From Pseudeuparius sepicola (lineage: Eukaryota; Arthropoda; Insecta; Coleoptera; Anthribidae): 64,000 nucleotides of DNA. Below the pieces are notes generated by a model, which saw only the letters and a list, made by a program, of their open reading frames with translations, did no database searches and was not told the origin of the DNA. The stretch is from assembly GCA_963920635.1 (NCBI GenBank), contig OY987298.1:57453949-57517948 (forward strand), written 5' to 3'. Below, piece after piece: positions 13,437 through 35,111 of the stretch (the stretch's first letter is position 1; every line of letters starts with the position of its first letter). The position numbers and the translations under genes are program-made.

Positions 13437-14205
13437 TAGAGGCCCTGTATGACACGAAAAGTGACAGTTATTCCTTTTAACAGAGGTTGGACAACGATCG
13501 GATGTCTCTCTCTGGCGAGGGTCTTATTTTCCCTATAAAATTCATTTTGTGCAACAGACATATATTTTTTCGCTCTTTCTAACATTCCCCTAGCAGCACG
13601 ATGAATCAAAATTGGATTTTAAGGTTAAGCTAACGACAGTTAACTGCCATAAGCGTAGGTAGATGAGGGCACAGTTTAAAATGTATAAAAATATAGATAA
13701 AACCAATAAATAGGTAAATAGGTTAGGTAGTACTATGTTATTTGCAAAGCTTCACTAATAATAATTATTGAAGGTTGAATGGAAAAGTGAAGAAACATAT
13801 AATTTGTTCCAAGAAAATAGAAATTTTAGGATATCAGGATAAACACATTTATTAAATTTTTGTAGAAGGGTGGTATATGTAGATAGATATGTACATAAAA
13901 TTAAACAAGGCTCTAGCATACCAACTAATCAAACTTTCGAATATTTCTTCAATAGGAATCATAGCTGCAATAATAATTATTATTCCGTTCATTTAAAAAT
14001 AAATAAGGTCTTTTAAATGGTTTTACTGTATGGTTTCGTTTCTTCAAACTCTCTTCTTATACCTACCATCATAATTTTAAGACAATTAATACTGAAATTT
14101 GTACGGAACAAAAAGTTGGAAAGTTTGTTTTGGTAATATGAATCAACCAACAATAATAGGAATTAGGCTGAATAAAAAAATGAGTACCTAGGTATTTAAT
14201 ATCGA

Positions 14206-14617
14206 TGTTATATCCGACCTCAAGCATCACCTTGATCATAACCTTGTTTTTACCCTTGATTCTGTTTACTGTTGGATATTATGTTCTCATTCTCTATTGT
14301 TCAAGATGCTTACTACAAAGATATCATTTTTCATTGTATATTGTTCTAGAATGATTACTAGAACATATCATATTCCTTTTGAGTATTGTTAAAACTTGCT
14401 TACTGCAAGAATTGCAGAATTTGATCTTCCCTTTGTCTTTATATTCTTTTCCCATGAGAACCACAACACCTCAGCATAACAGATCTGTATAAATAGGACC
14501 TAGTAAAGTAAGAGTGTTAATTCTAGTCTTGTCTGTAGTCTAAGCCGAAACTCTGTAACTCGCGTTACTCAAATAAAAGTTTTTTAAAAAGTCTTCGTCT
14601 TCACGTCGCCCGTAACA
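14206..14617 (+). repeat. 5' LTR of the errantivirus-like element
   Basis: This 412-bp repeat starts TGTTATATCC and ends CGCCCGTAACA. It has a TATA-like box TATAAATAGG at 14488 and an AATAAA polyadenylation signal near 14574 (in CTCAAATAAAAG). Its partner is at 34630-35041. Confidence 0.95.
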
Positions 14618-14957: not shown

Positions 14958-16154
14958 ATGCCGAATAACGAAGCTATAAACTCTAATGTAAACAATGAAG
15001 CAAACGCTTCAAATAACGACGAAGTACCATTTAAATTAAGCGAAATATTTTCTATCATCCCTGAATACGATGGGGATCAAATCAATTTAAATACTTTTAT
15101 CATTGCATGTGATAGGGCCATGCAAATGACTGTTGGCGACCAAGCCATTTTACTTGTTATAAAAATTAAAAATCAATTAAAGGGACGTGCAGCCCAACTC
15201 ATTAATTCAAGAGATTTGAGTACCTGGGGCGAAATCAAACAATTACTTAACGTTCATTTCGGAGATCCTCGCGATCTAACTTCACTAATTCAAGATTTAC
15301 AAAGAATGTGTCAATCCCAAAATGAAAATGCTTTGACTTTTGTAGGCAGAGTTCAAACTCACTGCTCGAAAATGTATGCCGCAATAGGAAAACAAGGCCT
15401 TCTCACTAGGGAACAAAAAGAATCGCAAGCTACATTAATCGATAGCATGTGTTTAAATACAGTTTTGACAGGTTTAGAACCAAGAATAGGGCAACTAATT
15501 CGTGCTAGCAATCCACCCAACATGATGGATGCTATAGCTTTAATTAAGAGAGAATTGCAACTTTCTTATTTTGAAAATCAAAAATTTCAGAGGCAAAATC
15601 GTGTACCAGTCTTCAATAATAATATCAAAAGAACCAGTAATAATTTTCCAAAATTTTGTAATTATTGCAAAAGAAATGGACATACTATCAATGAATGTCG
15701 AACTAAAAATCAAAATAGTTATTACAGAAATGGTCCAAATCCTTCTAGCTACTCTAACAATTCCCAAAATAACTCCCAAAGAAATAATTTCTCCCAAAAT
15801 AGGTTCCATCAAAGACCATCTTTTCCTCAGCAAAATAATTTTCAAACTCCTTCTTTCCAACCTAGGAATCACCCTCAAAACTTCCAACCAAGAAATCAAC
15901 CTCCTAGAAATTTTTCTAATAATATTCCTAGAAACAATTTCCCAAAAACTTTTAATAATAATTCAGGTTTCCAGCCTTCTAATCAAAATTTTACTCCTAG
16001 AGTCCCAAATTCAAATCCAAATAACCAAAATAGAACTCCCCAACAACATTATCTGGGCCAAAGCGAAAATTTTCAATTAACAGCCTCGGACCAGAATCCT
16101 ATTCCCAACTTCAAGAATCTTGGTATGACCAATACGGACCAAACGTTTGCATAA
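14958..16154 (+). CDS. Gag of the errantivirus-like element
   Basis: This intact 398-residue frame begins at an ATG about 340 bases past the LTR. Residues about 25-200 form a capsid-like domain (IIPEYDGDQINLNTFI, LKGRAAQLINSRDLSTW, FGDPRDLTSLIQDL). A single CCHC zinc knuckle, CNYCKRNGHTINEC, lies at 234-247. The remaining 150 residues are low-complexity Asn/Pro/Gln/Phe-rich (repeats of NNF, PRN, QNF) and probably disordered. The protease-pol frame opens before the gag stop in the -1 frame, so expression by -1 frameshifting is likely. Confidence 0.92.
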   Translation: MPNNEAINSNVNNEANASNNDEVPFKLSEIFSIIPEYDGDQINLNTFIIACDRAMQMTVGDQAILLVIKIKNQLKGRAAQLINSRDLSTWGEIKQLLNVHFGDPRDLTSLIQDLQRMCQSQNENALTFVGRVQTHCSKMYAAIGKQGLLTREQKESQATLIDSMCLNTVLTGLEPRIGQLIRASNPPNMMDAIALIKRELQLSYFENQKFQRQNRVPVFNNNIKRTSNNFPKFCNYCKRNGHTINECRTKNQNSYYRNGPNPSSYSNNSQNNSQRNNFSQNRFHQRPSFPQQNNFQTPSFQPRNHPQNFQPRNQPPRNFSNNIPRNNFPKTFNNNSGFQPSNQNFTPRVPNSNPNNQNRTPQQHYLGQSENFQLTASDQNPIPNFKNLGMTNTDQTFA

Positions 16155-18202
16155 ATACCGTTGACAATAGCAATCTATATTATATTAAAGATAATACCGA
16201 TAAGTACAAAATTTTAATTGACACAGGAGCTGGTATTTCAATTTTCAAACCAGAGACGGTTCAGCAATTTTTAAATCGATGTCCAGAAAATTTTCAAATT
16301 AAAGGTATTTCTGGCCAATCAATTCCTATTACTGAAGCGGTATTTGTTTCTTTTACGGGTCCTCTTTCTCCCCATAAAGTTTATATTTGCGATCTAGATA
16401 TAGGATTTGACGGAATTTTAGGCGCTGACTTTCTAGAAAGGTACGGTGCAATAGTAGATTTTAGGAATAAACAATTAATTACGTACTATAAGGTACACGA
16501 ATTACTCAAAGACGGAGATGAATTAAACGAGTTAACGAATAATAATGATAATAATAATCGAGTTGTTTATAAAAGACAAGTTAATGTTGACGAAAGATAC
16601 GATAGCCTTCATATAAACGCTTATGAACGAAATAATAATAATAATAACGATTACACGGAAAATATAAATAATTTTGAAAGCGAAAATACGAGTTATAATA
16701 TAAATCAGGTTACGATAGAACCGCGTTGCGAAAAAATATGCAAATTTCATACGAATAAGTATACGAATAAAGAAATGATTTTATGCGCACAACGAGTAGA
16801 AAAGGTATACGTGCCAAATGCTATAGTAAAAATAAACGAAGACGGTAATTTTTATACGACGATATTAAACGCTAATGCCATAACAAAGGATATTTGTTTC
16901 GAAGAATTTGAATTTGAGCCTTACATTAAAGAAACGAACGCTAGTGCTAATATTATTTGTAATTTTAATAAAACGAAAAGCAGAGTAGAAAAAGAATTAA
17001 TTACTAATTTATGTTTGAATTTTGAAGATATATTTTACTTTGACGGAGATTTCCTAAGTTTCACTAATGAAATAAAACATACTATCGATACAGGCGACGC
17101 TAAGCCAATTTTTACTAAATCTTATCGATATCCACAAGTTCACAAGGAAGAAGTAAAAACACAAATTAATAAAATGCTTTCTCAAGGAATAATTAGACCT
17201 TCTGTTTCACCATGGTCGTCCCCAGTATGGGTCGTTCCAAAAAAATTAGACGCTTCAGGTAAACAAAAATGGAGAATCGTAATTGATTATCGGAAATTAA
17301 ATGAATTAACAGTTAATGACAGGTATCCACTGCCTAATATTTCAGATATATTAGATCAGTTGGGTAATTGCCATTATTTTACTACTTTAGATTTGGCTTC
17401 TGGTTTTCAACAAATTGAAATGAATCCAGAAGACATTTCGAAAACTGCTTTTTCCGTTGAAAATGGACATTTCGAATATTTACGTATGCCCTTTGGCCTT
17501 CGTAATGCGCCCTCAACCTTTCAGAGGGTTATGGATAATATACTAATGGGGATACAAAACGAAAGGTGCTTAGTTTACATGGACGACATTATTATTTATT
17601 CTTCCACAATTAATGAGCATATCTCTCGTATTACTGAAGTTTTTCAAAGATTAAGAAATTCAAATCTAAAAATACAGCCAGATAAGTGTGAATTCTTACG
17701 AAAAGAAGTAATTTATTTAGGACATGTTATTACACCTGAAGGGGTTAAACCAAATCCACAAAAAGTACAAGCTGTTATCGATTTTCCTCAACCTGCCAAT
17801 ACTAAACAAATTAAACAATTTTTGGGTCTTACTGGTTACTACAGGAAGTTTATTCCAAACTTCGCAAAAATGACAAAGCCTTTAACTCGACTTTTAAGAA
17901 AAGACGTACCATTTATTTTTGATAAAGATTGTCGTGAATCTTTCGAACAACTTAAAAATGCATTAATAACTTCACCAATTCTAATATATCCTGATTTTGA
18001 AAAAGAATTTGTTTTAACTACAGATGCAAGCGCTTTTGCTGTAGGCGCGGTACTTTCGCAAGGACCTGTTGGAAATGATCTTCCCATAGCATACTTTTCA
18101 AGAACCTTAAGTCCAGCAGAAATGAAATATAGCGTTATAGAGAAAGAACTTTTGGCAATAATTGCTGCCGTAAAAAACTATAGACCTTATCTTTTCGGAT
18201 GA
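16100..18202 (+). pseudogene. Protease and reverse transcriptase, ended by a stop codon
   Basis: The frame is open from inside the gag tail (-1 relative to gag) to TGA at 18200-18202. Protease comes first, with ILIDTGAGISIF at about 16211 and GILGADFLERYG near 16420. A charged Asn-rich linker follows (about 16500-16760), then reverse transcriptase: SPWSSPVWVVPKK, LDLASGFQQIEM, MPFGLRNAPSTF and the catalytic box YMDD at about 17576-17587, all conserved. The early RNase H segment TTDASAFAVGAVL is also present. The stop falls inside RNase H just before the conserved LVTDHRPLTW stretch, in the same frame as what follows, so it is a single nonsense change. Protein before the stop looks under normal constraint, which suggests recent decay. 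Confidence 0.9.
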
Positions 18203-18211
18203 AAGTTCTTA

Positions 18212-19366
18212 TTGGTTACAGATCATAGACCTTTAACCTGGCTTTTCTCAATAAAAGATCCCGGTAGTCGTTTAGCACGTTGGCGACTTAAATTAGAAGA
18301 ATATAATTATCAAATAATTTATAAACCTGGAAAAATTAATCGAAATGCCGACGCTTTATCTCGAATCAAAATCAATCATATAAAAGAAGCTGTTTCCTTT
18401 CATACTTCCCTAGATGAACCATCTACTTCCCATGATAATCCTCAAGACATTGACCCGCCTATTGACAATAATGAGACTGACGAAATTGCTATAATCTGTA
18501 ATGAATTTGACAGATTTTTTGATCTATACAAGACGACTTCAATGATCGATTATTCTAAAATCCAATATACAAATAATCAACTTTTAGACAAAACACACAA
18601 GGATATTGTACTAATTTTTCAACAAGACAAATTAACAGACCTTCACGAAAAAGTTATTGATGATTTACTTGAGCTAAATCCTAATTTTAACTATAATAAA
18701 GCAAATGTTCTTTCCAGTCAAACCGTAGCTAAAAGAAAATATTATATAATTCCTGTTCCTTTTAATTTTGAAACCGCAATACAAGTACTCTTCATATCTC
18801 TTTATTACAGTAAAGATATATTCGAAGAAAATAAAACTTATTACATTGAAAACAATCCAGATTTTACAATTTTAGAAATGTTTAATTTTTTGTTCTCAGA
18901 TAAAAATTTCCAACTAACAATTTGTCAGAACATTGTGACTATACCAGACGAAGACCAAATACCTATAATAATAGATCAATTTCATTCAGGCAAGACAAAC
19001 TTACATCGAGGAATAAACGAAACAATTAGACGCATCAAACAAAAATATAATTGGACAGGACTAACTAAAGACGTCGAAACATTTATTCGGCAGTGCGAAA
19101 TCTGCCAAAAGACAAAAATTTGTAGACAAAACTTGGACAGTCCCTTAGTTATTACCGAAACTCCTAAAACTCCTTTCGAAAGAATAAATATTGACATCCT
19201 AGAAATCCCAGTGAAAAATAATATCCTTACCATAAGAGACGAACTGACAAAATTTACCCAGGCTTATGCACTTCCTAATAAAACAGCGAGATCTGTAGTA
19301 GACGCTCTTTTACTCTATTTTCAACATTTTGGAACTCCTTTAAGAATCCATTGCGATGATGAATAA
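18212..19366 (+). pseudogene. RNase H end and integrase N-terminal half
   Basis: It continues the same frame after the TGA. It holds the end of RNase H (LVTDHRPLTWLF, NRNADALSRI), a spacer of about 200 residues, and the integrase HHCC zinc region with CEICQKTK at about 19100. The first catalytic aspartate is in INIDILEI and the second in the block IHCDD at the very end. A +1 frameshift at about 19356-19366 ends this frame in TAA, and the rest of integrase continues in the next frame. Confidence 0.88.
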
Positions 19367-20498
19367 TCAATTAATGAAAGATCTTTGTAAATTATACAAT
19401 ATAAAATTAACTTTCTCTAGTGTTAGTCATCCGCAATCAAATGGCTCCTTAGAAAGATTTCATGCCACCTTAACTGAAATGATACGCGCGTGTAGTACAG
19501 AAAATCCTAACGAACACCCATTTCAAATGCTCCCTTACGCTTGTATAGCATATAACAATTCTATAAATAAAACACACGGCTTTACTCCTTACGAATTGCT
19601 ATTCGGTCACACCTCGTCTCGACCTCCAGAAGTTTTGTATAATCAGCAAGAATTAATCTCTAAGTACGTTCGCGATTTAAACAATAAAATAAAGCATTAT
19701 TATGAAGTGGCAAGAAAGCGTACGGATATGCGCAAACAAAAGGCGAAACAGCGATTTGATACACACGTTTCGGAGCAGCGACAATTTCGCGTAGGAGAAA
19801 AGGTTTATGTCAAGGAGTCCCAAATAAAAAATAAACTAGCTAACAAATTTAATGGACCCTATAAAATTAAAGAAATTTATACGAATTCAGCTTTGCTACA
19901 TAACCCAATTACTAACCAAACTACAAAAATGAATTTTGATATGCTAAAGAAATGTCACGAATTACAGGAAGAAGAACTAACGGTTAAAGAATTCTTTTAT
20001 ACTCTAGATCGAAAAATCCCTATTGAAAATAATAACGTTTCCATTGAACTGGGCAATTTATTTGATGCCCCTGAAAATATTTCATTAGCTCACTGTGTAT
20101 CTAAAGATTTAGAAATGAATGCAGGAATTGCAAAAGAATTTAAGAATAAATTTGGACACGTAGATGAACTAAAAAATCAAAATAAGTCAATTGGTGAAAT
20201 AGCAGTACTTCAACTTCCGACAAGAAATATTTATTATTTAATAACTAAAGAATTTTTCTATTATAAACCAACTTATGCTAATTTATTTAATTGCTTAAAG
20301 GAATTACGAACAATTTGTCTCGAGAGCACTGATGAAAAAGATAAAATTATAGCTATACCCAAGTTAGCTTGTGGATTAGACAAATTAGATTGGGATACAG
20401 TTCTCCCTATGATCAAATATATTTTCAAAAATACTGATATTAAAATAATTTGTTATATCGAACCGTTGATTGAAGAAGGGGAAGATATCCTCCCTTAG
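19356..20498 (+). CDS. Integrase C-terminal half fused to a TARG1-like macro domain
   Basis: This 380-residue open stretch begins just after the integrase frameshift. Residues 20-110 are the end of the integrase core, with the third catalytic residue in HPQSNGSLERFHATL. Residues about 146-190 are the C-terminal GPY/F-type domain (RVGEKVYV, NKFNGPYKIKEI). After a short linker, residues about 226-368 form a macro domain of the OARD1/TARG1 type: SIELGNLFD, SLAHCVSKDLEMNAGIAKEF, GEIAVLQL, NIYYLITKEF, KPTYANLF, IAIPKLACGLDKLDW and DIKIICY, all in family order. Known TARG1 enzymes remove ADP-ribose from glutamate/aspartate side chains using a lysine after YYLIT and an aspartate after GCGL. Both are present here (K298, D342). 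The domain is in frame with integrase and ends 12 residues before the stop, so the fusion is not an artefact of joining frames. I infer an ADP-ribosyl-glycohydrolase carried by the retroelement. Confidence 0.9.
   Translation: MMNNQLMKDLCKLYNIKLTFSSVSHPQSNGSLERFHATLTEMIRACSTENPNEHPFQMLPYACIAYNNSINKTHGFTPYELLFGHTSSRPPEVLYNQQELISKYVRDLNNKIKHYYEVARKRTDMRKQKAKQRFDTHVSEQRQFRVGEKVYVKESQIKNKLANKFNGPYKIKEIYTNSALLHNPITNQTTKMNFDMLKKCHELQEEELTVKEFFYTLDRKIPIENNNVSIELGNLFDAPENISLAHCVSKDLEMNAGIAKEFKNKFGHVDELKNQNKSIGEIAVLQLPTRNIYYLITKEFFYYKPTYANLFNCLKELRTICLESTDEKDKIIAIPKLACGLDKLDWDTVLPMIKYIFKNTDIKIICYIEPLIEEGEDILP
20031..20459 (+). other. Macro domain (ADP-ribosyl-glycohydrolase, TARG1/OARD1-like) region
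   Basis: The predicted catalytic lysine codon is at 20247-20249 and the catalytic aspartate codon at 20379-20381. The ADP-ribose-binding loop region is SLAHCVSKDLEMNAGIA (the family has SLAHC.S.D..M.AGIA). Base composition and codon use are as AT-rich as the rest of pol, so if the domain came from a host gene the capture is old enough to have equilibrated. Confidence 0.88.
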
Positions 20499-21116
20499 GG
20501 TGGCATGCGAATATGATCCTTATGGTCTGTCTGTCACATTCCCACTTGTTACTAAATGTTTCTGTCTCGTTCTCTTACATTTCACCGACACGCGTCCGTA
20601 CGGTGGCGCCAAATTCCGAAACCACCATTCGAGTCGGTCGATGGAGAAAGGAATCTTCAATCAACGGTTCGGGCAAAAGGTCACTCCATCGACGACGGAA
20701 GAGCGCAGAAAACTACGCGGTCAGCGCACCGCCACCTATGGACAAGGCCATACAACTACTGTCGTCCGACGCGACGACGTCCAGCTGTTTTTGTTTTTGA
20801 TCTGTATCTGTTCCTCGTTTTCCTCGTTTACTTATTTTTATTTCCACTTATATTATCGTTACTGGGTAATCTGTGATTGTTATTACGTGTATTTGGTGGA
20901 TACAGTAGTGTGCAGAGGACCAGTGGTGTTCTAGTCCGATAATTAGTGTGTGCCTATCAAAAACATTTCATGTTTGAGCCATCAGATAAAGGATACCTAA
21001 ATACGAAGGTTAGGAAGTGAAAGTGTGTTTTGTTGTATACAGAGACTTGCCATCAAGGCAAGTCTCTCATTGTATGTATAATATCAAAATGGGTGTTTTC
21101 TTGTGTTTTCTCAGCC

Positions 21117-21455
21117 ATGCCCGAGAAGTGTTGTGTCCCAAATTCGTCGATGAAGGAACGAATTAATCGACGCCCAAATTGCCTAACCTAACCGAGCCAA
21201 AGCCAAAAGTGTCCGTTTTTGCCTTTCCTAAGGATCCGGTTTTGAGCGCAAAATGGGTGCAGGCCATAAAAAGGGCTGACTTTGTAGTCAAGAAACATTC
21301 TAAGGTAAGTTACATGTTACATTTTTATATATTTTTCATAAAGCTTTGGGTTATTGTAGGTCTGTGAACAACACTTTTAACACAAGACATTGAAAGGGAG
21401 ACTACGTGTGTTCGTCGATGGTCCTCAATCAACGGTGTGTTGTAGAATCGACTGG
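21117..21455 (+). pseudogene. Decayed THAP-domain gene fragment with an intron
   Basis: The first block starts MPEKCCVPNSSM, then loses frame and resumes as VSVFAFPKDPVLSAKWVQAI and VVKKHSK. A donor GTAAGT follows at about 21304. After about 55 bases an acceptor TTGTAG leads into VCEQHF, completing the C-x2-H half, and DIERETTCV follows in yet another frame. This is the exon-intron layout of THAP genes, with at least three frame breaks. No catalytic domain follows because a MITE begins at 21526. Confidence 0.65.
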
Positions 21456-21525
21456 TGAAACTTTACGTGCACCCAGGGTTGCCACCCGTCCCGTATTTCA
21501 AGGGACAGTCCTGTATTTAAGTAAA

Positions 21526-22199
21526 GGAAGTGGCTATTTATACGTCCGACGGATACAAACGTCAGTATACGTCTTGCGCTCTCATTGGCGGGCTGAGTCA
21601 CATGACTTCTTTGGACGTGCATTTAACTCCGTACACGTCCGAAGCCGAAGTAAACTAATATTTAGATACGTCGGAAGTGCATTTTTCTCAAGCATCTTTG
21701 CAATAAGGAGCGTATGCACTGCTCCTTTTTGGGGGATAGACACTGCCGTATGAAAAAAGAAGTGGTAATAATTTCCAATGGTGTAACCCACCCCCGATTT
21801 TCTTGAAATTTTGGCTAGGTAGGTACCCCGTATTTTCGCCCGATGCGATGTTCGGCATTGTAACCCACCCCCGATTTTCCTGAAATTGTGGCTACCCTCC
21901 GACATTCGGCGCGGTGCCGAATGTCGGGTGGATTACATCATTGTAAATAATAAAATAACCACTTCATTTTTCATTCCGCAGCGCCCATCGCAGAAAAAGT
22001 AGGGCATACGCAATACAAAATGAGACAAGATAAGGTCTGAATAATCTCGGACATCATCCAATCGACTTAGTAAACAAGCCGATTCATAATCCATCGAACG
22101 GTAGAAGTAAGGTTATGTGTCACGTGACTCAATCGACCAATAAGAGCGCAAGACGTATACTGACGTTTGTATCCGTCAGACGTATAAATAGCCACTTCC
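21526..22199. mobile_element. MULE-like MITE with 9-bp target duplication
   Basis: Long inverted repeats start GGAAGTGGCTATTTATACG at 21526 and end with the complement at 22199. Similarity continues for well over 80 bases. TTAAGTAAA flanks both sides (21517-21525 and 22200-22208). A 9-bp duplication and long TIRs fit Mutator-like MITEs. A diverged half copy lies at about 39925-40190. The interior repeats a sequence around CCCACCCCCGATTTTC. Confidence 0.75.
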
Positions 22200-22208
22200 T
22201 TAAGTAAA

Positions 22209-25200
22209 ATGTCCCGTGTCCCGGCAAACATTCATACGGGACGCTATAAATCCCGTATTTTCAAAATTTAAGGTGAAAAATTAAAAATGTTACATGCGAA
22301 CGGCATTCACACAATCACCACCATCTAGAGTCCAAGCCGCGACTCACATGTGAACACAAAATTTACTAAATTATAGTCCTTCATGCCTTCATTGGCACCA
22401 CACTACAATTTTCATAAATGTCAATTTCTTGTGTGTTATGTGATATATCACAAAAAATGTTCTGGGATTTATTTTTATTTTTAAAGGATTTATTTATTTT
22501 TGGTTAGTCGTGATTAGCCAGCCATGATAATTTGTTTTTGGAAGTTTATCCCTTCAAGAAAAAAAAACAAAAAATGTTCTGGTTTATTTTTTTATTTTTA
22601 AAGAATCTATTTAGTTTAGTTTCATAATTTGTTTTGTTTTGTTTTTGTGTTATCTTCAAGAAAAAACAAAAACAAAAAATAGTGGTTTTCTTTTATTCCT
22701 TTTCATTGGCCTTTTTCAGTAAAACATTTTGTAGCCCCCTCCCCCCCCCCCCGAACGCCCGTCACGTCCCGTATTTTAAAATTGAAAAGGTGTCAAAAGG
22801 AAATTTGAAAATTCATTTTCTCGGAAACTACGTCCGGCCTCAAAAAACTGAGGTTAGATTCTTGGTCAGGGAAAATAGGTGGGTAGCCAAAATTTCAAGA
22901 AAATTGGGCGGTGCATATACTACGTTCCATAATTACCTCAAAAATTTGTTATATTGCCTAGTGGGATAGTCGCTGGTTGAAGGCGAAAGGAAGCGAAGGA
23001 AGGGTCACATGTAGAGTAGTCACTGAAATGTTTATTCTCGTAATAATTTTTTTGTTGTGATATTTTTATTGTTGAATTGTCATTTATTAAATAACTTAAA
23101 TTATTGCTCTATTAAAATATTTTTGTGTTCCACAAATTAGTTGCTAAGTTATGTTTGAAATTGTAGTAGTATTTTACCTGGACACAAAAAAACGACAAAC
23201 TTTGCAGAAGTTTCAGTTATTATGTGTTTTTAAGATGCTAGTTGAACGTAAATAAAAATCGTTGGTATCGTACTGTCATGCTTGAAGATGTGCCTCAAAA
23301 TGCATAGCTAATATTAATATTATCTATTATACAGTGAATAAAAAATGCGAAAGTGTGATTTTTCTTCTTCTTTTGGATAGGTGGCTGTGAATTCATATTT
23401 GACATTTTCTTGGGATTCCAAACAACTTTTCTTAGTGCTATACTGCTGTAGTTCTAAAAATAAGACTCTTGAGGAATTTTCATATTTTTCAACCTTCCCT
23501 GTATACGAATAGAAATTTTAAAATTTTTACAGGTCGATTTTGAGTTTAAGCACAAGCACTAACTTTTATCAAGAATAATTTGTTTTGAGAAACTTCAAAT
23601 AAAGAAAATTCCCATTTGTGTCCAACTTTCTGTCATTATTATTATTATCTCGAAAACAGGGCGGTATTGGAAAGTTATACCGTAAAATAGTCTTAAGACA
23701 CTGTATACAGGGTGTACTGAACTGAAGGTCAAAAATGAAACCACGTATTCTTGGAGTCAAAATAAGGGCACTTCTTCATATATTTTTTTCTTCTACGGGC
23801 CTTAGTTTTTTTTATACAGAGCATAGAAGTTTAGAGAAAAATACACGTATTTTTTAGTATCTCTAGAATTATACGAGATAGTTTCTTCAAACTTGGCGTG
23901 TCACATGATCGGATGAGCCGTCAAACTTAAGGTTGAAATGAAGCTTCTGAGGCTCACAGTTGCGGAGATACAGGGTGTTATTAGAATTTATTACTTCAGA
24001 AAAATGTTTAACAAAAAGTATCTCTTAGTATTTTTTCATATTCGCAGCCGATGGAGGAAGGGAACAATGACGTATCTGTTCTCCAAAGTTCTACATCAAC
24101 GCTTTGATACCTTTAATCCTTGTTTATAATAGGTATATAATCAAAGTTTATATCGTCGGTTCTCAAACAACGGAATATACTTATAATATTATCTTCATGT
24201 TTTGTTATTCGATTATCCTCGATCGATAGCGTTTATTATACACAATATTTCATAAGCATAAGTATTAACACTGACATACCTAAGTATAAAAAATATTATG
24301 TCTAGCTAAATTTATATAGTTGTCATTCATACAGAAAATTTGGTTTAGACGTCGATGGAAGATTCAATCAACGGTTTACAGCATAAATAATATAACAAAA
24401 TTTTAACGAAAAAATTAAAACCGACTTCAAAAATTTGCCCATATGCACATTTCAACTAAAATTTTAGAAATATTTTTCTCTTTCTAAATTGAGTTACCTT
24501 TGGATTTGGTGACAGTCAAGGCAAAGAATTTACATCTATTTAGATATGAATACACAATGACGTCAAAACCTATAGACGTGGTGCCCCATTGTTAAAATGC
24601 CCTTTATTTTGACGCCAAGATTAAATATATCCATACTACTCTAACAACATGCTACAAACAAAGACAGAAAGTCAACCATCAACCAACTATACACCCGGTG
24701 ATTCCCGGTTATAGTTCCTCCAGAATCACACTTAGATATCGCATGTTTTTTCTTGTTTGGGGGCGCCGGAAGCATCGGAACCTCACCTGAAGACTCGGGG
24801 GATGGTCTAACGACGCCAGCCTCCGAGCCCAGAGTCGAAATAAGTTCGCTACGGCTCGACAAAAAGGGGCAATTTCTGACAATCTCGCGACATTTTCGGA
24901 ATAATTTAATGGAGCGCTTAGATTGTGATTAGTTCTGGGCGTCAAGCGTTTATCAAAACAAACCTGTCTATAGGTTCTGACGTCATTGTGAATACATCAT
25001 ATCCTACATACATCATAACCAGGGCCCCCATGGGAGACCCCTCCGGCAGGGCGCCAAACGTTGGTCCACCCTGTACTTAAAACTTATAGTTTTTTTTAAA
25101 TGTTTGTTTCATACTTTACTTTTTGTAATATTTTTTATAAATTTTATATAACTGATCAACTTATTTTTTATATACAGGATGATTATTTTAGAACTATACC

Positions 25201-26422
25201 ACCGCGATTTTCTCACTTATTTTGCGCCCTACAATAAAAAATCGTGAAGAAACAAAAATGTGGCAATTTTGGACAGCTAAGTGGTGCTGCAAAAGAAATC
25301 GGCAGCCATAGCCAACTTGACGCGCAATATAAAAAATACCTCAAATTGAGCAAAACAATTTAATAGCCCTAGAATATTTATTTTAAGAGATAGAGGAAAA
25401 CTATCATATTGAAAATTGATGGCACTAAGAAGCTTTATGCAACTGGGTACTCAGATAGTTTCAGAAAATTACACAGGGTGTTCGGCTCTCTTGAGGCTAT
25501 GCATTTTTTGTTTATTTCTTATTAAGCGATTTTCTCGGTTATTTTAGGTCGCACAGAAAATAGATAAGAAAATAAAATATGGCAATTTTGGCCAGCCGAC
25601 GTTAAAAAAGAAATGGGCCTCCATGCCCAATTTTTCGCGCTGTGCTGAAAAAACTTCAAATCGACAAAAATGTTCATGCCCTCAAGAGAGCCGAAGACCC
25701 TATGTAATTTGTCAAAACCCAATTAAAAGTTACCACCTGGTACCAAATTTTGGAAAGATGGGCTAGAAGTGGCTTCTAAATACAAGGTATCGAAAAATTT
25801 TATGAGAAAAAGTTGTTTAGAATTAAAACTTATTGCCGTGTACCAAATTTTGAGACAATCAGCCTACTTAATTTTTTCATTTTTTCTTTAGCGCCTTAGA
25901 AAAAAAAGTGGGAAAACAAAGTAGACCGATCTTTCCAAAATTTGGTACCCTGGAGTAATTTTAATTGGGAACAACTTTTCTTAATGAATTTTTTTGTTAT
26001 CTTTAAAGGAAAAGGCACTTCACCTACAATGAAAATAAATAAATGGTCGCTGTCGACGCCATCTTGATTTTTCAAAAACGAAAATATGCTAAAAATTAGT
26101 TTCCAGTCATAAGTCAAGCAAATCAGAACCACAAACAATCAAATTTAAACGCGAATTTTTTTTTTCTTTTACACATATTGGCTCACTTATCCTGGGCCAC
26201 CCTGTATATTGTAAACAGCCAGTATTTGTTTTTTTTTAATTTATGTACCTGTGGCTTTGAGTTAAATTTTATTTTTGTTATATTACTTGATCACAAATTC
26301 TTTTTTGTTTCCCTTGGGTGGTATTTATTGGTTAATAGCATGAACTAGATCAATAATTCTAACAAAATCATAAGTTGATTAAACTACAAAACTTGACAGT
26401 TGCATATTATAGGTAAAAAATA
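22209..26422. other. Repeat-derived DNA, no gene
   Basis: It includes a cytosine run (22739-22752), blocks of ACAGGGTGT type near 23710 and 23970, and two related passages at 25190-25450 and 25515-25700 (both with CGATTTTCTC..TTATTTT and TGGCAATTTTGG). No coding sequence is supported. Confidence 0.4.
24720..24945 (-). repeat. Dispersed repeat family member (copy 1)
   Basis: Shares, in inverted orientation, GTCGAGC, CGGCTCGG, GATGCTTCCGGCGCCCCC and the CGCGAGATT..CAGAAATTG region with 40808-41040 and 48725-48925. Three copies in one window show a common repeat; its class is unknown. Confidence 0.6.
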
Positions 26423-26765
26423 GCTAGGTACAGGGGCGGATGGACTGTACCTAACCAGCCCGGGCATTTGTCTCCCAAGCGGCCCCTAAACATCTCATTT
26501 GGCTTTAGATTTTTCTTTTCTTAATTATTATCATAATAACTGTGATATATGGTAGGGCTTGTTGAGAATTTACAGAAACACGCACTACGTCACAAAAACA
26601 TCTATTTAAAAATCTCACAATTTAAGTATACAATCGTACTATGCTATCGAATACCCGTAGCCAACTGTGTCTTCGACACAGTGCAGACCAAAATAAACAC
26701 CTTAGTTTTTTACATCGTACCTATACGGCGAAACAATAAACTCAATAAGATATGAATATATCACA

Positions 26766-26782
26766 CACCTCCCCCCTACATA
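26766..26782 (-). promoter_or_regulatory. Polypurine tract
   Basis: On the minus strand, GTAGGGGGGAGGTG directly precedes the 3' LTR (26541-26765). This is the expected primer for plus-strand DNA synthesis. Confidence 0.75.
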
Positions 26783-26803
26783 AAATGTTCAAATGAAAAA
26801 AAA

Positions 26804-29800
26804 TTACAATTTGTCGTATACTAATCTATCAATTTGTTTTCTTTCGCGTTTAGGGCGTTCACCTTGAGCACTACACTGCACATTTTCCACTTTTTCTACA
26901 TCATCTACTGGACTAGGCATATCATCCACAATATTTTCAGATACTTCAAAATTTTCTTGCTGATTGCCATTTATTAAAGAAGATTCATACAAGTGAATTT
27001 TTTTTATTTGATTGACGTGCCTTTTCCAGGATAGATTACCCAACTCAGGAATATTTACAATGTAAGTCGTTTTACCAATTTTTTTTACAATGGTTCCCTT
27101 TATCCAAGTAACTTTATTTATTTTTCTATAATCTTTAACAATTACGGTTTCGCCAACATTAAATAATACAACTCGACGACCTTTGTGGTACTTTCTTTGT
27201 TTATTTTGACTTATTAAAACTTTATTTTGTAGATCGTTATTACTTATAGACTTTTCGGGTCTAAGCAAATCAAAACGCGTTCGTAATTTCCGGTTAAACA
27301 TTAATTCTGCTGGGCTAAGTCCTGTACTGCAGTGTTTTGTGTTTCTATAATCGAACAAAAAATTATTCAATGCCCAGTTAATGTCTAATGTACTATTTTT
27401 CCCTAACGCATTTTTGAGAGCGTTTTTTATCGTTTTAACTGCGTTTTCCGCCGCTCCGTTTGAAGATGGGTGAAAAGGAGGAGATGTAACATGTTGCAAA
27501 CTATTCTTTGATAAAAATAACTGAAATTCGTTTGAACAAAATGTCGTTGCATTATCTGTCACTATTTTGTGTGGAAGACCAAAACGGGCAAATAATGATC
27601 GCAAAACTTCAATCGTTACTTTGGAGGTTATTGAATTGAGAGGAAACACCTCAACCCATTTTGAATATGCATCCATTACAATTAAAAACTGTTTATTCAA
27701 AAACGGCCCCATGATATCTAAATGCAAGCGGGACCATACTTCTTGCGGATAAGGCCATGGGGTAAGTATTGCCTTGTCTGGTGATTTTTTATGAATTAAA
27801 CAATTTTCACATGATTGACAAATTTGTTCAATCTGTTTGTCTAAACCAGGCCACCAGAAGTATGATCGGGCTAGGCTTTTCATTTTTACTACGCCCATGT
27901 GACTGGCATGAAGCTGTTTAAGTAATTCGGGACGTAATATAAAAGGAATTATTATTCGATTATTCCATATTACACAGTCGGATTCTAAACTAAGATCATT
28001 TCTGATACGAAAATACGTTTTAAGTTCATCTGGAACCTTGTTCGGCCAGCCGTTCTTTATAAAATTTATAACTTTATTTAAACTTGCATCTTTGGCAGTT
28101 TTCAATTTAACAAGATTAAAATTAATTGGAAAATCTGTATTATTAGAAAAATAATTTACAAAATTGATTTCGTCGGCATGGCTGTCTTCGTTCGGGTTTT
28201 CCAGAGGTAACCTTGATAGAGAATCGGCATAATTTTGATTCGATTTCACAAAACAAATTTCATAATCAAAATTTGACAAGATAATTGACCATCTTCTTAA
28301 TCGATTTGCTGAAAATTGGGGAATACCCTTTTCTGGATTAAAAATGTACGTTAGCGGTTTATGGTCAGTTACTAAATAAAATTTAACTCCATAAATGTAC
28401 TGAAAAAATTTTGATACTCCAAAAACTAAAGAAAGAGCCTCTTTTTCAATTTGGCTATATTTTTCTTCAGATTTTGACAGTGTGCGGCTTGCGTAAGCAA
28501 TAGGTCTTTCGGATTTGTCTGGCATAATATGGCTAAGAACAGCACCAATACCATAATTTGACGAATCTGTACATAATCTTATGGGTAAATCCGGATTAAA
28601 ATGCACCAGAACATCAGCCGACGCAAGTAATTTTTTTACCTTGCAAAAAGCTTTGTCACATTCTTGTGACCAAACCCAATCTATATCTGCTTTTAACAGC
28701 TGGTACAACGGATGTAAAATCATGGATAAATTTCTTATAAATTTTCCATAAAAATTTACCATTCCAAGAAAAGATTTTAATTGTGTTACATTACCCGGAA
28801 TTGGAGCATTTTTTATGGCTAAAATCTTTTCTTCGGAAGTATATACACCGCGACTGTCAATAATGAAACCTAAGTAAGATATTGAAGGTTTGAAAAAGTC
28901 ACATTTATTCAAACACAAACGTAGGCCAGCCTCTTGTAATCTAAACAGAACTTTTCTTAATCGTTCAATGTGTTGTTGTCGGTCACACCCGGTAACCAAA
29001 ATATCATCAAGAAAAACAATGGTTCCGTCAATATCTTGCAACAAAGAATCCATAATTTTTTGAAATTTCGCCGGCAAACTAGCAATACCAAAAGGAGCTC
29101 TCGTGTAACGAAATAAACCCTTGTGGGTGGATATTGTAACTAATTCCCGAGATTTGTCATCCAATAATATTTGCTGATAAGCTGAAGACAAATCTAATTT
29201 TGTAAAATGTGTACCGCCCTGTAATTTAACTAGAAGCTCCTCCACTCTTGGAAGGGGGTATTTATCGATTTCAATGTAAGGATTCACACTAACTTTAAAA
29301 TCACCACAAATTCGTACTGCACCATTTTGTTTCAAAACTGGAACAATTGGTGTTCCCCATTCGCTAAATTGAACAGATTCTATTACTCCTTGAGCTTGTA
29401 ATCGCTCCAGTTCTTGTTCAACTTTTCCCTTTATCGCAAAAGGTAATGGGCGAGGTCGAAAAAATTTTGGTTTGACTAAACTATTTTTTAAATCTAAAGA
29501 AATAGTTCCTTTGGTAAATGTACCCAAACCTGGCAAAAAAACTTGTTTATATTTCTGAAGTAAAATTTTTAAATCAGCAGGTAGCTCAGCCTCAACAAAA
29601 TTAAGGTTTTCTTTTGGAACAACGACAAGTCCAAATAGATAATAAAAATCTCTACCTAACAAAGGTGGTCCAATTGAATTACTTATTACATGAATTTTTA
29701 ATTCTTTTTCCTGATTATTAAAGAAAATTTTACAAGTAAAATATCCTGTCGTTGTTAGATAATTTCCATCATAAACAATAAAAAAGGTATCAGGTGGCAT

Positions 29801-30910
29801 TAAGGATTTATGAGAAAAATTAGATATAAAATAATTTTCCGAAACAACACTACGCGCAGAACCTGTGTCTAATGTGTAAACACAAGACTTTTTATCGACA
29901 AAAATTTTTATTTTAATCGGAGGATTTCGTGTAGAATCTCGCTTCGAATCTAACGAAAACAATGAAGCCCCCGATTCTTCTAAAAAATGCTGGCTATTAT
30001 TTTGATATGCCTTATTATTATTGTATTTTTTAGAACACATTGGAGCCAAATGCCCTTTATTTTTACATTTGTAGCAAAAACATTCGCGGAATGAGCACTT
30101 ATCTGCCTGATGGTTTCTTCGTCCGCATACACCGCATTTCGGTGCCCTTGGAGCGCCTGCCGCGGTACCATAATATGATGGCCCGGGCCCGGCGACGGCG
30201 GCGATGGCGGTTTGGTGGGGGGCGCGGGGGGTACCCTGCGCTCTGGCCGCCGCCTGCTGACTGCCGCTCCTGCCGGTACCGCCGCCCCCGATTCCGCGAG
30301 TGTGCGCAGAACCATTCCTTATCGATCGGCTGCTGGCGTACTGAAGTTCCACTGGTTCCTTTTTGATACCCAAATTCTCGTAGGAATTTAAATGCTGGTG
30401 TGCGGCGGCCTTGGCCGTCGCTATCTCTACGACATTCTCCAATGTCACTGTTTTCTTTTCTTCAAAAAGTCGGTCTTGAATTGCGCCTTTGTCATATCCA
30501 ATAATGAACTGGTCTCTCAGAATCTGCTGTAGCTGATTTGTTTCAAAATCGCACAAGTTGGCTAATTCACGAACTCTTGCACAGCATTCTCTTGCTGATT
30601 CGGTAGGTAGTTTTCGGGAAGTATAAAACTTATAACGTGCTGCAAAAACTGACATTGTGGGTTTGAAATACTCCGATAACAGTTTCACCAATTCATCGTA
30701 TTTCTTTTTTTCGGGTTCAGTCGGCAAACACAAATTATGCACCAATTTATATGCGTCTTCTGTGAGTGCGTTAAGCAGTATAGCTCTTCTTCTATCCACA
30801 TCAATGATTTCATTTGCTAGAAAATAATTTTCCAGTCTTCTTTTGAAAATAACCCAATCGGCATTGGCAGGGTCGAATTCTCGAAGATGTCCAAAATTCG
30901 TGGTTGCCAT
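26804..30910 (-). CDS. Gag-pol polyprotein of the intact Ty3/gypsy element
   Basis: One 1368-residue frame encodes everything. Gag capsid region lies at about 1-180. A Gly/Ala/Pro-rich linker covers 200-256. Two zinc knuckles follow at 259-292 (CGVCGRRNHQADKC, CYKCKNKGHLAPMC). Protease has YTLDTGSARSV (DTG 348-350), reverse transcriptase about 500-700 (LDLSSAYQQI, APFGIASLPAKF, catalytic FLDD 633-636), RNase H about 745-880 (LCTDSSNYGIGAVL, VTDHKPLTYIF), and integrase about 1010-1210 with the zinc region CQSCENCLIHKK and D,D,E core (HLDIMGPF, VTDNATTF, SSNGAAENAVKT). A chromatin-type chromodomain is not visible. All catalytic residues are present. Gag and pol are in one frame, as in the K02A2.6/mag-like group. 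Nothing disrupts the frame. Confidence 0.95.
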   Translation of the reverse strand: MATTNFGHLREFDPANADWVIFKRRLENYFLANEIIDVDRRRAILLNALTEDAYKLVHNLCLPTEPEKKKYDELVKLLSEYFKPTMSVFAARYKFYTSRKLPTESARECCARVRELANLCDFETNQLQQILRDQFIIGYDKGAIQDRLFEEKKTVTLENVVEIATAKAAAHQHLNSYENLGIKKEPVELQYASSRSIRNGSAHTRGIGGGGTGRSGSQQAAARAQGTPRAPHQTAIAAVAGPGPSYYGTAAGAPRAPKCGVCGRRNHQADKCSFRECFCYKCKNKGHLAPMCSKKYNNNKAYQNNSQHFLEESGASLFSLDSKRDSTRNPPIKIKIFVDKKSCVYTLDTGSARSVVSENYFISNFSHKSLMPPDTFFIVYDGNYLTTTGYFTCKIFFNNQEKELKIHVISNSIGPPLLGRDFYYLFGLVVVPKENLNFVEAELPADLKILLQKYKQVFLPGLGTFTKGTISLDLKNSLVKPKFFRPRPLPFAIKGKVEQELERLQAQGVIESVQFSEWGTPIVPVLKQNGAVRICGDFKVSVNPYIEIDKYPLPRVEELLVKLQGGTHFTKLDLSSAYQQILLDDKSRELVTISTHKGLFRYTRAPFGIASLPAKFQKIMDSLLQDIDGTIVFLDDILVTGCDRQQHIERLRKVLFRLQEAGLRLCLNKCDFFKPSISYLGFIIDSRGVYTSEEKILAIKNAPIPGNVTQLKSFLGMVNFYGKFIRNLSMILHPLYQLLKADIDWVWSQECDKAFCKVKKLLASADVLVHFNPDLPIRLCTDSSNYGIGAVLSHIMPDKSERPIAYASRTLSKSEEKYSQIEKEALSLVFGVSKFFQYIYGVKFYLVTDHKPLTYIFNPEKGIPQFSANRLRRWSIILSNFDYEICFVKSNQNYADSLSRLPLENPNEDSHADEINFVNYFSNNTDFPINFNLVKLKTAKDASLNKVINFIKNGWPNKVPDELKTYFRIRNDLSLESDCVIWNNRIIIPFILRPELLKQLHASHMGVVKMKSLARSYFWWPGLDKQIEQICQSCENCLIHKKSPDKAILTPWPYPQEVWSRLHLDIMGPFLNKQFLIVMDAYSKWVEVFPLNSITSKVTIEVLRSLFARFGLPHKIVTDNATTFCSNEFQLFLSKNSLQHVTSPPFHPSSNGAAENAVKTIKNALKNALGKNSTLDINWALNNFLFDYRNTKHCSTGLSPAELMFNRKLRTRFDLLRPEKSISNNDLQNKVLISQNKQRKYHKGRRVVLFNVGETVIVKDYRKINKVTWIKGTIVKKIGKTTYIVNIPELGNLSWKRHVNQIKKIHLYESSLINGNQQENFEVSENIVDDMPSPVDDVEKVENVQCSAQGERPKRERKQIDRLVYDKL

Positions 30911-30961
30911 CTTGCACTTCTACTTGCGTGGATTTTGCGGAAAATCGTTAATATGAACTTC

Positions 30962-30990
30962 TTTTCCCGCATGTAACTCGTCGCCACTTT
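30962..30990 (-). promoter_or_regulatory. Primer-binding site of the intact element
   Basis: On the minus strand the 5' LTR ends ATATCACA, followed by AAAG and TGGCGACGAGTTACATGCGG. The position and TGG start fit a tRNA primer site; the tRNA was not assigned. Confidence 0.6.
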
Positions 30991-31376
30991 TGTGATATAT
31001 GGTAGGGCTTGTTGAGAATTTACAGAAACACGCACTACGTCACAAAAACATCTATTTAAAAATCTCACAATTTAAGTATACAATCGTACTATGCTATCGA
31101 ATACCCGTAGCCAACTGTGTCTTCGACACAGTGCAGACCAAAATAAACACCTTAGTTTTTTACATCGTACCTATACGGCGAAACAATAAACTCAATAAGA
31201 TATGAATATATCACAATAACAATTAAAAAAACAAACAATGTGGATAATGTATTTTTTTAATAAAACAAAATATACATGTTTTATGAAAACATAAATAAAA
31301 ATAAAATAAATACAAATAAAACAAATAAAACTTTTTTCTCTAAATATAAAGATATAAAAATAACAAAACATTCAGA

Positions 31377-31705
31377 AGGACCACACCGTTATTTTATTTT
31401 TATTGAATTCGAAATTCCGACTTTTAAAGTCGAAGGCCAACTTTGAAGTCAAAATTCCGACTTTATAAAGTCGAAATTCCCACTTTTAACTCGAAATTTC
31501 GACTTTGAAATTCGAAATCCGACTTTGAACTCGAAATTCCGACATTGAACTCGAAGTTTTGACTTTATGAACTTCCAACTTTCAAAGCCGAAGTTCAAAG
31601 TCAAAATTTTGTGTTCAAAATCGGCATTTCGACTTCAAAGTCGGACTGCGACTTTAAAAGTCGAAATTTCGAGTTCAATAAAAATAAAATAATGGTGTGC
31701 CCCTT
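31377..31705. repeat. Palindromic MITE built from GACTTT/AAAGTC units
   Basis: Terminal inverted repeats of about 50 bases start AGAAGGACCACACCGTTATT and end AATGGTGTGCCCCTTCT. Between them, some twelve short units of the type GACTTTRAAGTCGAAATTYC occur in both orientations, so the whole segment can fold into many alternative hairpins. It lies inside the small hAT element. Confidence 0.6.
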
Positions 31706-32060
31706 CTACATTGCCGTAAAACACGTAAAGAAATAATAGAACAAAAATAACAAAACAAAAATAATTAATTAAGGCCAGTTGCACCGTCCTATCTTAAATT
31801 AACTACCTACTTACAACAATTATTGTAACAATGATTGCCTTTTGTTTTGTCAAGTAGTTAAGACTGTCTTAAAATTTAAGATGCGATGGCCGATGAGCCT
31901 TCGAGCCTGCGGCGGCCCTCCGGGGCCCTTCGAATGACCGGCCCACCGGACATTTGTCCAGTGTCCCGGTGGTCCCATCCGCCCCTGGCTAGGTACCTAA
32001 CTACTGTCCCGGTTTTCGTCAGCCAGGAGTTGGTCACCTTGTTGTATATGAATATTATAA

Positions 32061-32140
32061 CCGTCGATGGAGGAAGGAATCAATCAACGTTATAACCACA
32101 GAAAATATAGCGTATATTTTCTGTGGTTATAACTCCATTA
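32061..32140. repeat. Perfect 45-bp hairpin next to a CGTCGATGG...CAATCAACG motif
   Basis: GTTATAACCACAGAAAATATA is followed by GCG and then its exact complement (about 32090-32134): 21-bp arms with a 3-base loop. It directly follows CGTCGATGGAGGAAGG and AATCAATCAACG, a motif pair also seen at 20642, 21415 and 24352. Confidence 0.7.
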
Positions 32141-32394
32141 TAAAGAGATTATTTTAAAAAGACTCGAGAAATTTGTTATTAACAATTAATAACGTTACTC
32201 GCTACTTTAAAAAAACCGCCTCCATAGGCAAAGAGGGGGGCGGGGCCGCGGCCGGGCGACTCGAATCGAACGCTGGAATACAAAATCTAAAATATATCTT
32301 TCAGCCGTCGATCGATGGCGATGACTCATTCGTACCAGCACAAAAAACGCAAACAACCAAGGTCAAATCAACAGATTTGGCAAGCCGCGAAGCG

Positions 32395-32570
32395 CGCCAT
32401 CTGCCGAACAAAAGTTCGTCTTGGGAAGCCGCATTACAAGTGCGCAGTGCGCCATCTACCGGACAGAAGCCTCTCTTCCACCTCAACGCCGAGACGTAAT
32501 CCGAGGATGGTGCAAGTGCGCCATCTACCGAACAACCGTGTCGGACTGGGAAGCCTCGTTTCCCCACCGC
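32395..32570 (+). repeat. Short repeats upstream of env
   Basis: GCGCCATCTRCCGRACA occurs three times (near 32395, 32447, 32518), twice followed by CTKGGAAGCC. This leader is GC-richer than env and may still belong to the mosaic insertion. Confidence 0.5.
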
Positions 32571-32714
32571 GCCGAGAAGTATTCGACGGTGGCTCCATCT
32601 TCTTCCGAAGAGTATTGAGTCAGTCGGTATTTCGCATTAGGAAACTAATCTTTACCTTCCTCTATCGACGATCGAACCAAGTTCCTAATTCTGAAACTTC
32701 GTTACAGATTTTCT

Positions 32715-33455
32715 TTGTTCGCTACCGCTATGGCACAATATACACTGCGACCAATTAATAACACCATAGGCGTGTTCTATCAAGAGCAATCCGGACTCAA
32801 AATTTCTAATGACAAGTGGAGTTTATTGGTATATAAAGACATTTCATCTCTAAAAACAACGTTCGAAAATAATAATAAAATTTTAGAAAATATGCAATTT
32901 ATAATTCAACCAAAAGACGTACGAATGGCCGCCTTTCTAAGCGAAGTTAAGTCACATCTCACTTTACTAAATCAACTTTCCGAAAACATTGCGCTCAAAT
33001 TTGAAGAATTAGCTATTGATGTAAGAAGATATAAAAGAGGTTTAATTAATGGTTTAGGGTCAGTTTGGAAATTTATTACCGGAAATTTAGACGCTTCAGA
33101 CGGACAGTATTATAACGATTGTATCGACAAAATTAACAGAGACGAACACGAATTAGAAAAATTAATGAAAAAACAAATTTTAGTAACTACTTCAGTTATC
33201 AAACATTTTAATGACTCTATCAACAAATTACAAATTGATGAAATTACTTTTAATAATGACATAAAACAAATCGAAAATTACATTTATAGCATTTCTGATA
33301 ATTTTAATTATTACACTGCAAAATTACAAGTTTTAGAGATGGCCGAAAGACTCCTAGAATCCTATACCTTTATCGAAAGCAATTTAAATGACATTCTAAA
33401 CTCTATTACTTTTGCAAAGTTACATATCATTCACACGTCAGTTATAACTTCCTGA
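32715..33455 (+). pseudogene. Envelope fusion protein, N-terminal part (baculovirus F-like)
   Basis: This open stretch encodes the ectodomain start of an errantivirus-type envelope, a membrane fusion protein of the family shared with baculovirus F proteins. The key feature is a furin-type site RYKR (residues 105-108) followed at once by a hydrophobic glycine-rich segment GLINGLGSVWKFITG, the likely fusion peptide, and then charged helical sequence. A splice acceptor-like TTACAG lies just upstream at about 32703-32708, as expected for spliced env mRNA. A frameshift at about 33445-33455 ends the frame. Confidence 0.85.
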
Positions 33456-34581
33456 AGACCTGGTTCATCATTTGCAAATAATCGCTCAAACTTTAAACAA
33501 AAATAATTTGCCCTTAACTCCTCAACTTCTAAATGTTGCAACTTATCTTGATTTTATAGAACTAAAGGTTTTTTAAACAGAAAATAGACTTGTTTTTATA
33601 TTAGACATTCCTTTAGTAGAACCTCAATGGTATACTCTTTATAGAATTTATCCTATTCCAATTTTCGACAATAAAACTGGATTTTATCACATGGTATCCA
33701 CTGATACTAAATTTGTAGCAAAAAGCGATGACCCAACTCTCTATGTAATTCTCTATGATATAAAAAATTGTAAAGAACTAGCATTTGATTTAATAATGTG
33801 CAAAGATTTATATCCTACTCCTATTGACTCACATTCAAGATGTGAAGCTCAATTATTAGAGGTAAAAACCCATTTACCTAATACTTGTGACATAGTCACA
33901 ATTTCAATTGAAAGTTACAATGTACAATTGATTCAAGAGAATCAATGGTTAATAATTTTAAGTGAAATATTTCCTATAACTATTAAGTGTAAAAATCAAA
34001 ATCCTTTGACTATAATGCTAGACAAAACTTCAATTTTAACGTTAAAATCTGAATGCATTGCTTATATTGGAAGTACTAAAATTCAAACGAAAAATTTAAA
34101 TAAATCTAATCAAACCTATAAATTTCACCCAATTAATATACCATTTGAATGTTGCAAAGAAACTCCAAATAAACTAAAATATCCTGACTTAAAACCTTTA
34201 CAACTAAATAAATTTAATTATGACGATTTAAATGTCGCAAAGCATAAATTAGACGAATATGCAAAGGATCTTGATAATATTATTAACGAACCAACTGTAA
34301 ATAAGTATACGCCAATATTGACATATCTATCCATTACTTTAATCATACTTTTAATTATTGTGTACTTTTATTTTAAATGTAAAAAGTCTAGGAACATTAA
34401 AATAAGCATTATTACTACTAACAACGGAGACGATCCTCCACAACCTCCTAGAACTCGAAATCACGTTTTTCAAAATTTAAGAAAATTTGTTACTGTCAAA
34501 AGAAGACCTTCGTATAGATTGGACGAACCTCGCGAAGAAGAAGAAATTGAACTAAATTCTAATACTAAAACATATGCCTAA
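33456..34581 (+). pseudogene. Envelope protein, C-terminal part with transmembrane anchor
   Basis: After the frameshift coding continues, meets a stop near 33573, and is then open to 34581. The last 296 residues (from the Met at 33691) include paired cysteines typical of the env ectodomain (IMCKDLYP, CEAQLLE, FECCKE), a transmembrane helix at about 206-229 (TPILTYLSITLIILLIIVYF), and a basic then acidic cytoplasmic tail ending in YA. The two breaks in env and two in pol show the copy is inactive. It ends 38 bases before the polypurine tract. Confidence 0.85.
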
Positions 34582-34618
34582 TTTAATGTCAAAATTTGTT
34601 AACACAAATTTTTAATAT

Positions 34619-34629
34619 AAGGGGGAAGG
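34619..34629 (+). promoter_or_regulatory. Polypurine tract
   Basis: AAGGGGGAAGG lies directly before the 3' LTR, the normal plus-strand primer of an LTR retroelement. Confidence 0.8.
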
Positions 34630-35041
34630 TGTTATATCCGACCTCAAGCATCACCTTGATCATAACCTTGTTTTTACCCTTGATTCTGTTTACTGTTGGA
34701 TATTATGTTCTCATTCTCTATTGTTCAAGATGGTTACTACAAAGATATCATTTTCCATTGTATATTGTTCTAGAATGATTACTAGAACATATCATATTCC
34801 TTTTGAGTATTGTTAAAACTTGCTTACTGCAAGAATTGCAGAATTTGATCTTCCCTTTGTCTTTATATTCTTTTCCCATGAGAACCATAACACCTCAGCA
34901 TAACAGATCTGTATAAATAGGACCTAGTAAAGTAAGAGTGTTAATTCTAGTCTTGTCTGTAGTCTAAGCCGAAACTCTGTAACTCGCGTTACTCAAATAA
35001 CAGTTTTTTAAAAAGTCTTCGTCTTCACGTCGCCCGTAACA
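34630..35041 (+). repeat. 3' LTR of the errantivirus-like element
   Basis: Same length and ends as the LTR at 14206. Of about four differences, one changes the polyadenylation signal AATAAA to AATAAC (near 34998). Confidence 0.95.
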
Positions 35042-35111
35042 TCGATATATTAGTCTCTCATTCTTTTTTTTGTAAAATAAAAGTTAATAACTTTTTAATG
35101 CAAGAGAGATC

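Follow-up and report, generated by a model that had tools for sequence, protein, structure and literature searches.

In the beetle Pseudeuparius sepicola, a recently active family of env-bearing Ty3/gypsy retroelements has a pol that ends in an intact macro domain of the TARG1 type, directly behind the GPY/F-type region of the integrase, and this domain is probably an active hydrolase that acts at integration. The copy described here lies in the window, a stretch of 64,000 nucleotides of contig OY987298.1 (positions 57,453,949 to 57,517,948, forward strand), and the coordinates of its parts are collected in Table 1. An earlier note on this DNA had proposed the capture of a host-type ADP-ribosyl-glycohydrolase domain by an errantivirus-like element, a proposal supported by the subfamily of the domain, by its catalytic pair and by a junction that is found throughout the family.

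The open reading frame (ORF) 19356-20498 starts within a Ty3/gypsy integrase, of which it covers the latter half, and continues in frame into a complete macro domain. In a Pfam search of this ORF (E <= 0.001) Macro was identified and no chromodomain was found. The best TARG1-type match of the domain among PDB sequences had E=1.5e-36 and its predicted fold reached a TM score (template modelling score) of up to 0.93 against the TARG1 structure, values that rule out a chance match or a misread frame. Identity to human TARG1 was 42-47% over the whole domain length, and TARG1 was the nearest solved macro domain both by sequence and by fold. The catalytic pair is present as K298 and D342, aligned to Lys84 and Asp125 of human TARG1. 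The macro domain, its assignment to the OARD1/TARG1 subfamily and the two catalytic residues, all read by the earlier note from the letters alone, were thus confirmed by profile and structure. The protein known as TARG1, OARD1 or C6orf130 (ALC1-like class) resembles the element's domain in fold, in the Lys/Asp pair and in whole domain length, but it is a free single-domain cell protein whereas the latter is the C-terminus of pol in more than 100 copies. The element therefore carries a TARG1-type domain and not TARG1 itself, because the domain is fused behind the integrase and is not a minimal stand-alone one. Judging from the conserved fold and the catalytic pair, it is most likely active as an ADP-ribosyl hydrolase.

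The genome searched was the window's own, comprising 769,049,646 bp in 16 contigs. The best 108 of 4,409 candidates, by protein score, were scored; the resulting counts are minimum values, and such a list is uninformative on the share of copies without the macro domain. Among these best candidates the integrase-macro junction was identified in at least 107 places besides the window, with the same order, so it is not unique to the window copy and the in-frame fusion described by the earlier note extends to the whole element family. A TARG1 pseudogene or retrocopy landed in one copy is refuted by the same junction at these 107 further places. They were 99-100% identical in protein over residues 2-370 (2-371 in one of them), the window copy matching over 1-380, and no stop was present within the match in 107 of the 108. 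The pol frame, of 1,495-1,499 codons, was open in 49 of the 108 places (counted from the match table), although one of these 49 (L087) has an internal TAA. K298 and D342 were identified in 30 of 30 fetched loci and, after the addition of 20 lower-ranked ones, in 50 of 50, window copy included. At the point where the window sequence diverges, all 29 fetched copies read ...YIEPSS, followed by a stop in the 15 copies read over that stretch. In the three copies read past the end of pol (3/3) the stop precedes a splice-acceptor-like site, TTACAG, and env.

The long terminal repeats (LTRs) of eight copies were compared, all hand-picked from those with an open frame; a ninth pair contained no LTR, and the fetched stretches lacked a few bases at the start of the 5' LTRs. 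Six of the eight pairs had no mismatch; of the remaining two, one differed by 1 mismatch and 4 gap columns and the other by 3 mismatches and 5 gap columns, out of about 410. The family is high-copy and, because six of the eight pairs show no mismatch, recently active.

The window element itself is an errantivirus-like, env-bearing Ty3/gypsy element, as seen in its LTRs, short target site duplication, order of pol domains and Baculo_F env. The order identified in pol with Pfam was RVT_1, RT_RNaseH and Integrase_H2C2, with rve under the cut-off in the broken pol piece of the window (25.1 bits where 32.6 are needed) and a protease-like DTGAG, read by eye, in pol open stretch 1 (16034-18202). The two env pieces matched PF12259 (Baculo_F) with E values of 3.1e-8 and 4.1e-12, and no Pfam match was obtained for the ORF in the position of gag (14958-16154). 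Errantiviruses and env-bearing insect Ty3/gypsy elements are alike in having LTRs with a 4-bp duplication, the series reverse transcriptase (RT), RNase H, H2C2 and integrase, and a Baculo_F env behind a splice-acceptor-like site; the errantivirus-like nature already claimed for the element is borne out by its LTRs and env. In the window copy pol is interrupted by a TGA at 18200-18202 and by a frame break at about 19356-19366, between pol open stretch 2 and ORF 19356-20498.

Selection was measured in 49 copies other than the window copy, as the mean pairwise ratio of non-synonymous to synonymous differences (pN/pS). For the macro domain this ratio was 0.07 in the 29 top-ranked copies, 0.13 in the 20 copies lowest in the list of 108 and, with all 49 pooled, 0.10; for the C half of the integrase the same sets gave 0, 0.10 and 0.05. 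The 500 codons upstream presented 0.11 over 300 of 406 pairs, the other pairs being excluded for more than 60 differences. With pS of about 0.023-0.033 among copies, signal is present. In the 49 copies silent variation affected 17 codons of the macro domain and amino-acid changes affected 15 (a stop in one case); the corresponding numbers for the integrase were 33 and 14. The macro domain is slightly looser than the integrase, with the same order of constraint, and within the sampling bias of this set it is shown to have spread with the element and been kept among its copies. It is very improbable that the domain is a passenger, a captured cell gene without function. The existence of related families without it would suit a passenger, as would the number of changed codons, 15 in the macro domain and 14 in the integrase although its stretch is longer, but the pN/pS of 0.07-0.13, in a sample biased low, is near that of the integrase, the catalytic pair is intact in every copy inspected and stops are absent from all but one of the 108 matches. 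These figures are biased to intact copies by the ranking, and decayed copies may exist.

The nearest pols found (P0002-P0006, Anoplophora among them) were 64-73% identical, and all five reach the end of the integrase and finish at query residue 198-202 approximately, without a macro domain, whereas the pol of the window family continues into it. P0007, whose tail is diverged, ends at about 198-202 as well; P0008 breaks off inside the integrase. Because five different sequences end at the same place, their shared end point is better explained by stop codons than by contig ends. Apparently the ancestral pol ended after the integrase and the macro domain is a lineage-specific gain, a reading of these sequences drawn from the relatives' pols ending right there.

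The macro domain is intronless and its A content is 39%, as compared with 36-41% in the gag, pol and env pieces and 31-34% in the flanks; this base composition is like that of the rest of the element. Most simply, the domain would derive from a spliced TARG1 mRNA of a beetle, captured by the element. A source outside animals is not favoured: relatives found with the macro profile in IMG/VR contigs (80 loci kept of 95) are at 30-42% identity, but identity is higher to human TARG1 (42-47%) and to Molorchus P0010 (61% over 71 columns). In an unrooted tree without P0014, the window groups with Coccinella P0009 and with Molorchus P0010, the row of the latter being half-length (91/67, not strong). 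A branch (93/96) places this trio on the same side as Logan P0015 and three IMG/VR loci labelled as phage, an arrangement that is a point for the non-animal source. In the tree with P0014, this sequence, Coccinella, the window and Molorchus lie on one side of a branch (92/76).

Two other sets of sequences contain TARG1-type or similar pieces. Molorchus minor P0024 and P0010, each on a 117,462-bp contig, are gene models with macro pieces 60-68% identical, and in one of the two models the macro piece is accompanied by a C-terminal domain of integrase p58 fused to it; they may represent another macro-bearing element or merged gene models. P0012 (Logan, 535 aa) comprises a weak PHD match, a macro domain of the TARG1 type and a GDSL/SGNH hydrolase, an order which we take to resemble ORF1 of CR1-like long interspersed nuclear elements, and it may be a second retroelement type carrying TARG1.

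TARG1 hydrolyses ADP-ribose esters, both on Asp/Glu and at the ends of nucleic acids, and is an interactor of PARP1 (PMC7050489); it also reverses thymidine-linked ADP-ribosylation of DNA (PMC8501950). The earlier note had put forward PARP-based silencing, antiviral marks and integrase-DNA repair complexes as possible targets of the element's domain. In the element, the macro domain would most likely travel with the integrase into the nucleus and strip ADP-ribose placed by host PARPs from the integrase, the capsid, chromatin proteins or the viral DNA ends; such removal at the DNA breaks of integration would let integration and gap repair proceed. Several points weigh against this proposal: the window's own copy is broken in both pol and env; the ranking of the copies was by protein score, so that those with low pN were preferred and the ratios are too low; and related elements manage without the macro domain, which is thus dispensable for integration in general.

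The chief rival, rather unlikely, is that the domain works as a chromodomain does, binding ADP-ribosylated chromatin (at breaks, for example) and steering integration, with catalysis being secondary or serving for release. Macro domains can read ADP-ribose marks as well as erase them (PMC7050489), and in chromoviruses the corresponding place of pol, behind the integrase, is occupied by a mark-recognising domain of host type (PMC3605345). Theirs is a chromodomain, whereas the window element has a macro domain with its catalytic pair in an animal, env-bearing lineage, and the full pair in 50 of 50 copies would be needless for a pure reader.

Viral macro domains remove antiviral mono-ADP-ribosylation, and RNA-virus macro domains belong to the MacroD-like class. 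Those of coronaviruses and of alphavirus nsP3 share with the element a virus-borne macro fold, but in fold searches they are only about 9-16% identical to its domain and are not of the TARG1 type. The known viral role would suit a counter-defence in the cytoplasm or in the particle, with antiviral mono-ADP-ribosylation being removed from gag/capsid or viral RNA and the location in pol serving only for packaging. Some fish epsilon-like endogenous retroviruses also have macro-domain ORFs (PMC4977317, citing Basta 2009), which would agree with it, but the domain of the window family sits behind the integrase and not in gag or in a separate frame, and a counter-defence of this kind is unlikely. 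Because of these fish retroviruses, a macro domain in a retroelement is already known. As described there, theirs are additional ORFs in vertebrate retroviruses, whereas the window element has an integrase fusion in Ty3/gypsy. No in-frame integrase-TARG1 fusion in Ty3/gypsy was found among the top matches of searches in open-licence literature, which leaves most subscription journals outside.

The spacer between RNase H and integrase (18545-18931) was predicted to have a macro-like fold in a structure model of moderate quality. With hhalign its probability against macro profiles was 5, 1.4, 13 and 14% (0.6% against P0014 alone), and no macro match was obtained against PDB sequences. In the alignment with the C-terminal macro domain, the spacer has a proline in the column of the catalytic lysine; identity between the two is 13% only, which rules out the C-terminal domain as a recent duplication of the pre-integrase one. 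A degenerate TARG1 relative (E 3.5e-7) was identified at the position of the spacer, directly before the integrase zinc domain, in the gypsy pol fragment P0014, and only the tail of one, at the same place, in the gypsy pol fragment P0018. On balance we lean towards repeated recruitment of macro domains of the TARG1 type into the pol of Ty3/gypsy elements, with an old and degenerate one, in the spacer, being a standing part of pol in the clade and the beetle family having added a fresh catalytic copy behind the integrase. As modelled, the spacer fold may be a general feature of the clade.

Two codons ahead of the pol stop the window copy is interrupted by a foreign insert, bounded by the 8-bp repeats ATCGAACC at 20457-20464 and 32671-32678 and ending, by eye, in imperfect inverted repeats. 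GC content is 0.24-0.33 in windows within 20000-20499 and rises to 0.49-0.54 in windows 20500-20699 and 20600-20799 because the insert starts there, as the uninterrupted copies show. The macro domain does not belong to the insert, which begins behind it, at 20465, between the repeats. A THAP-like reading was made by eye near 21118, in a stretch that contains stops, and suggests that the insert may be a P-element-like DNA transposon. Within it lies a younger gypsy element (26541-31215, minus strand), which comprises a single, intact-looking frame of 1,368 aa, 225-bp LTRs that are 100% identical and, by eye, ATAAC on both sides. Elsewhere in the window, a further Ty3/gypsy pol ORF (Pfam) with gag-like ORFs (by eye) was identified at 585-5016 and a C-terminal piece of a hAT transposase (PF05699) at 58719-59486, both on the minus strand.

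Table 1. Coordinates in the window of the features of the element and of its insert.
Feature	Position	Strand	Remarks
Target site duplication TCGA	14202-14205 (left copy), 35042-35045 (right copy)	.	
5' LTR	14206-14617	+	TG...CA, 412 bp; 4 differences from 3' LTR
gag-position ORF	14958-16154	+	398 aa; named gag by position alone
pol open stretch 1	16034-18202	+	722 codons between stops; RT and RNase H
pol open stretch 2	18212-19366	+	RNase H end, pre-integrase domain, H2C2, start of integrase core
Pre-integrase domain	18545-18931	+	predicted macro-like (TARG1-like) degenerate fold; model residues 59-187
Integrase second half	19356-19961	+	up to the point where relatives stop
Integrase-to-macro linker	19962-20030	+	23 residues
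TARG1/OARD1-type macro domain	20031-20464	+	ORF residues 226-370
Lysine 298 codon	20247-20249	+	human TARG1 Lys84
Aspartate 342 codon	20379-20381	+	human TARG1 Asp125
Foreign insert	20465-32670	.	12,206 bp; positions counted from sequence
env, Baculo_F type	32715-34581	+	split in window copy: ORFs 32715-33455 and 33691-34581
Purine-rich tract	34618-34629	+	ahead of 3' LTR
3' LTR	34630-35041	+	followed by TCGA

In this family a recently active animal retroelement has an eraser of ADP-ribose fused to its integrase, which cuts host DNA and joins to it, and during its own insertion the element may therefore have control over a host signal of DNA damage or defence. Whether PARP signalling limits or guides the integration of retroelements is a long-standing question, for which the natural fusion and the relatives without macro domain provide built-in controls. 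At the site where chromoviruses have their targeting domain, the macro domain also represents a pol domain of a new kind, and the spacer between RNase H and integrase acquires a possible fold. If macro domains were indeed recruited more than once, the integrase would be flanked by two macro folds and ADP-ribose would be a basic interface between such elements and the host nucleus.
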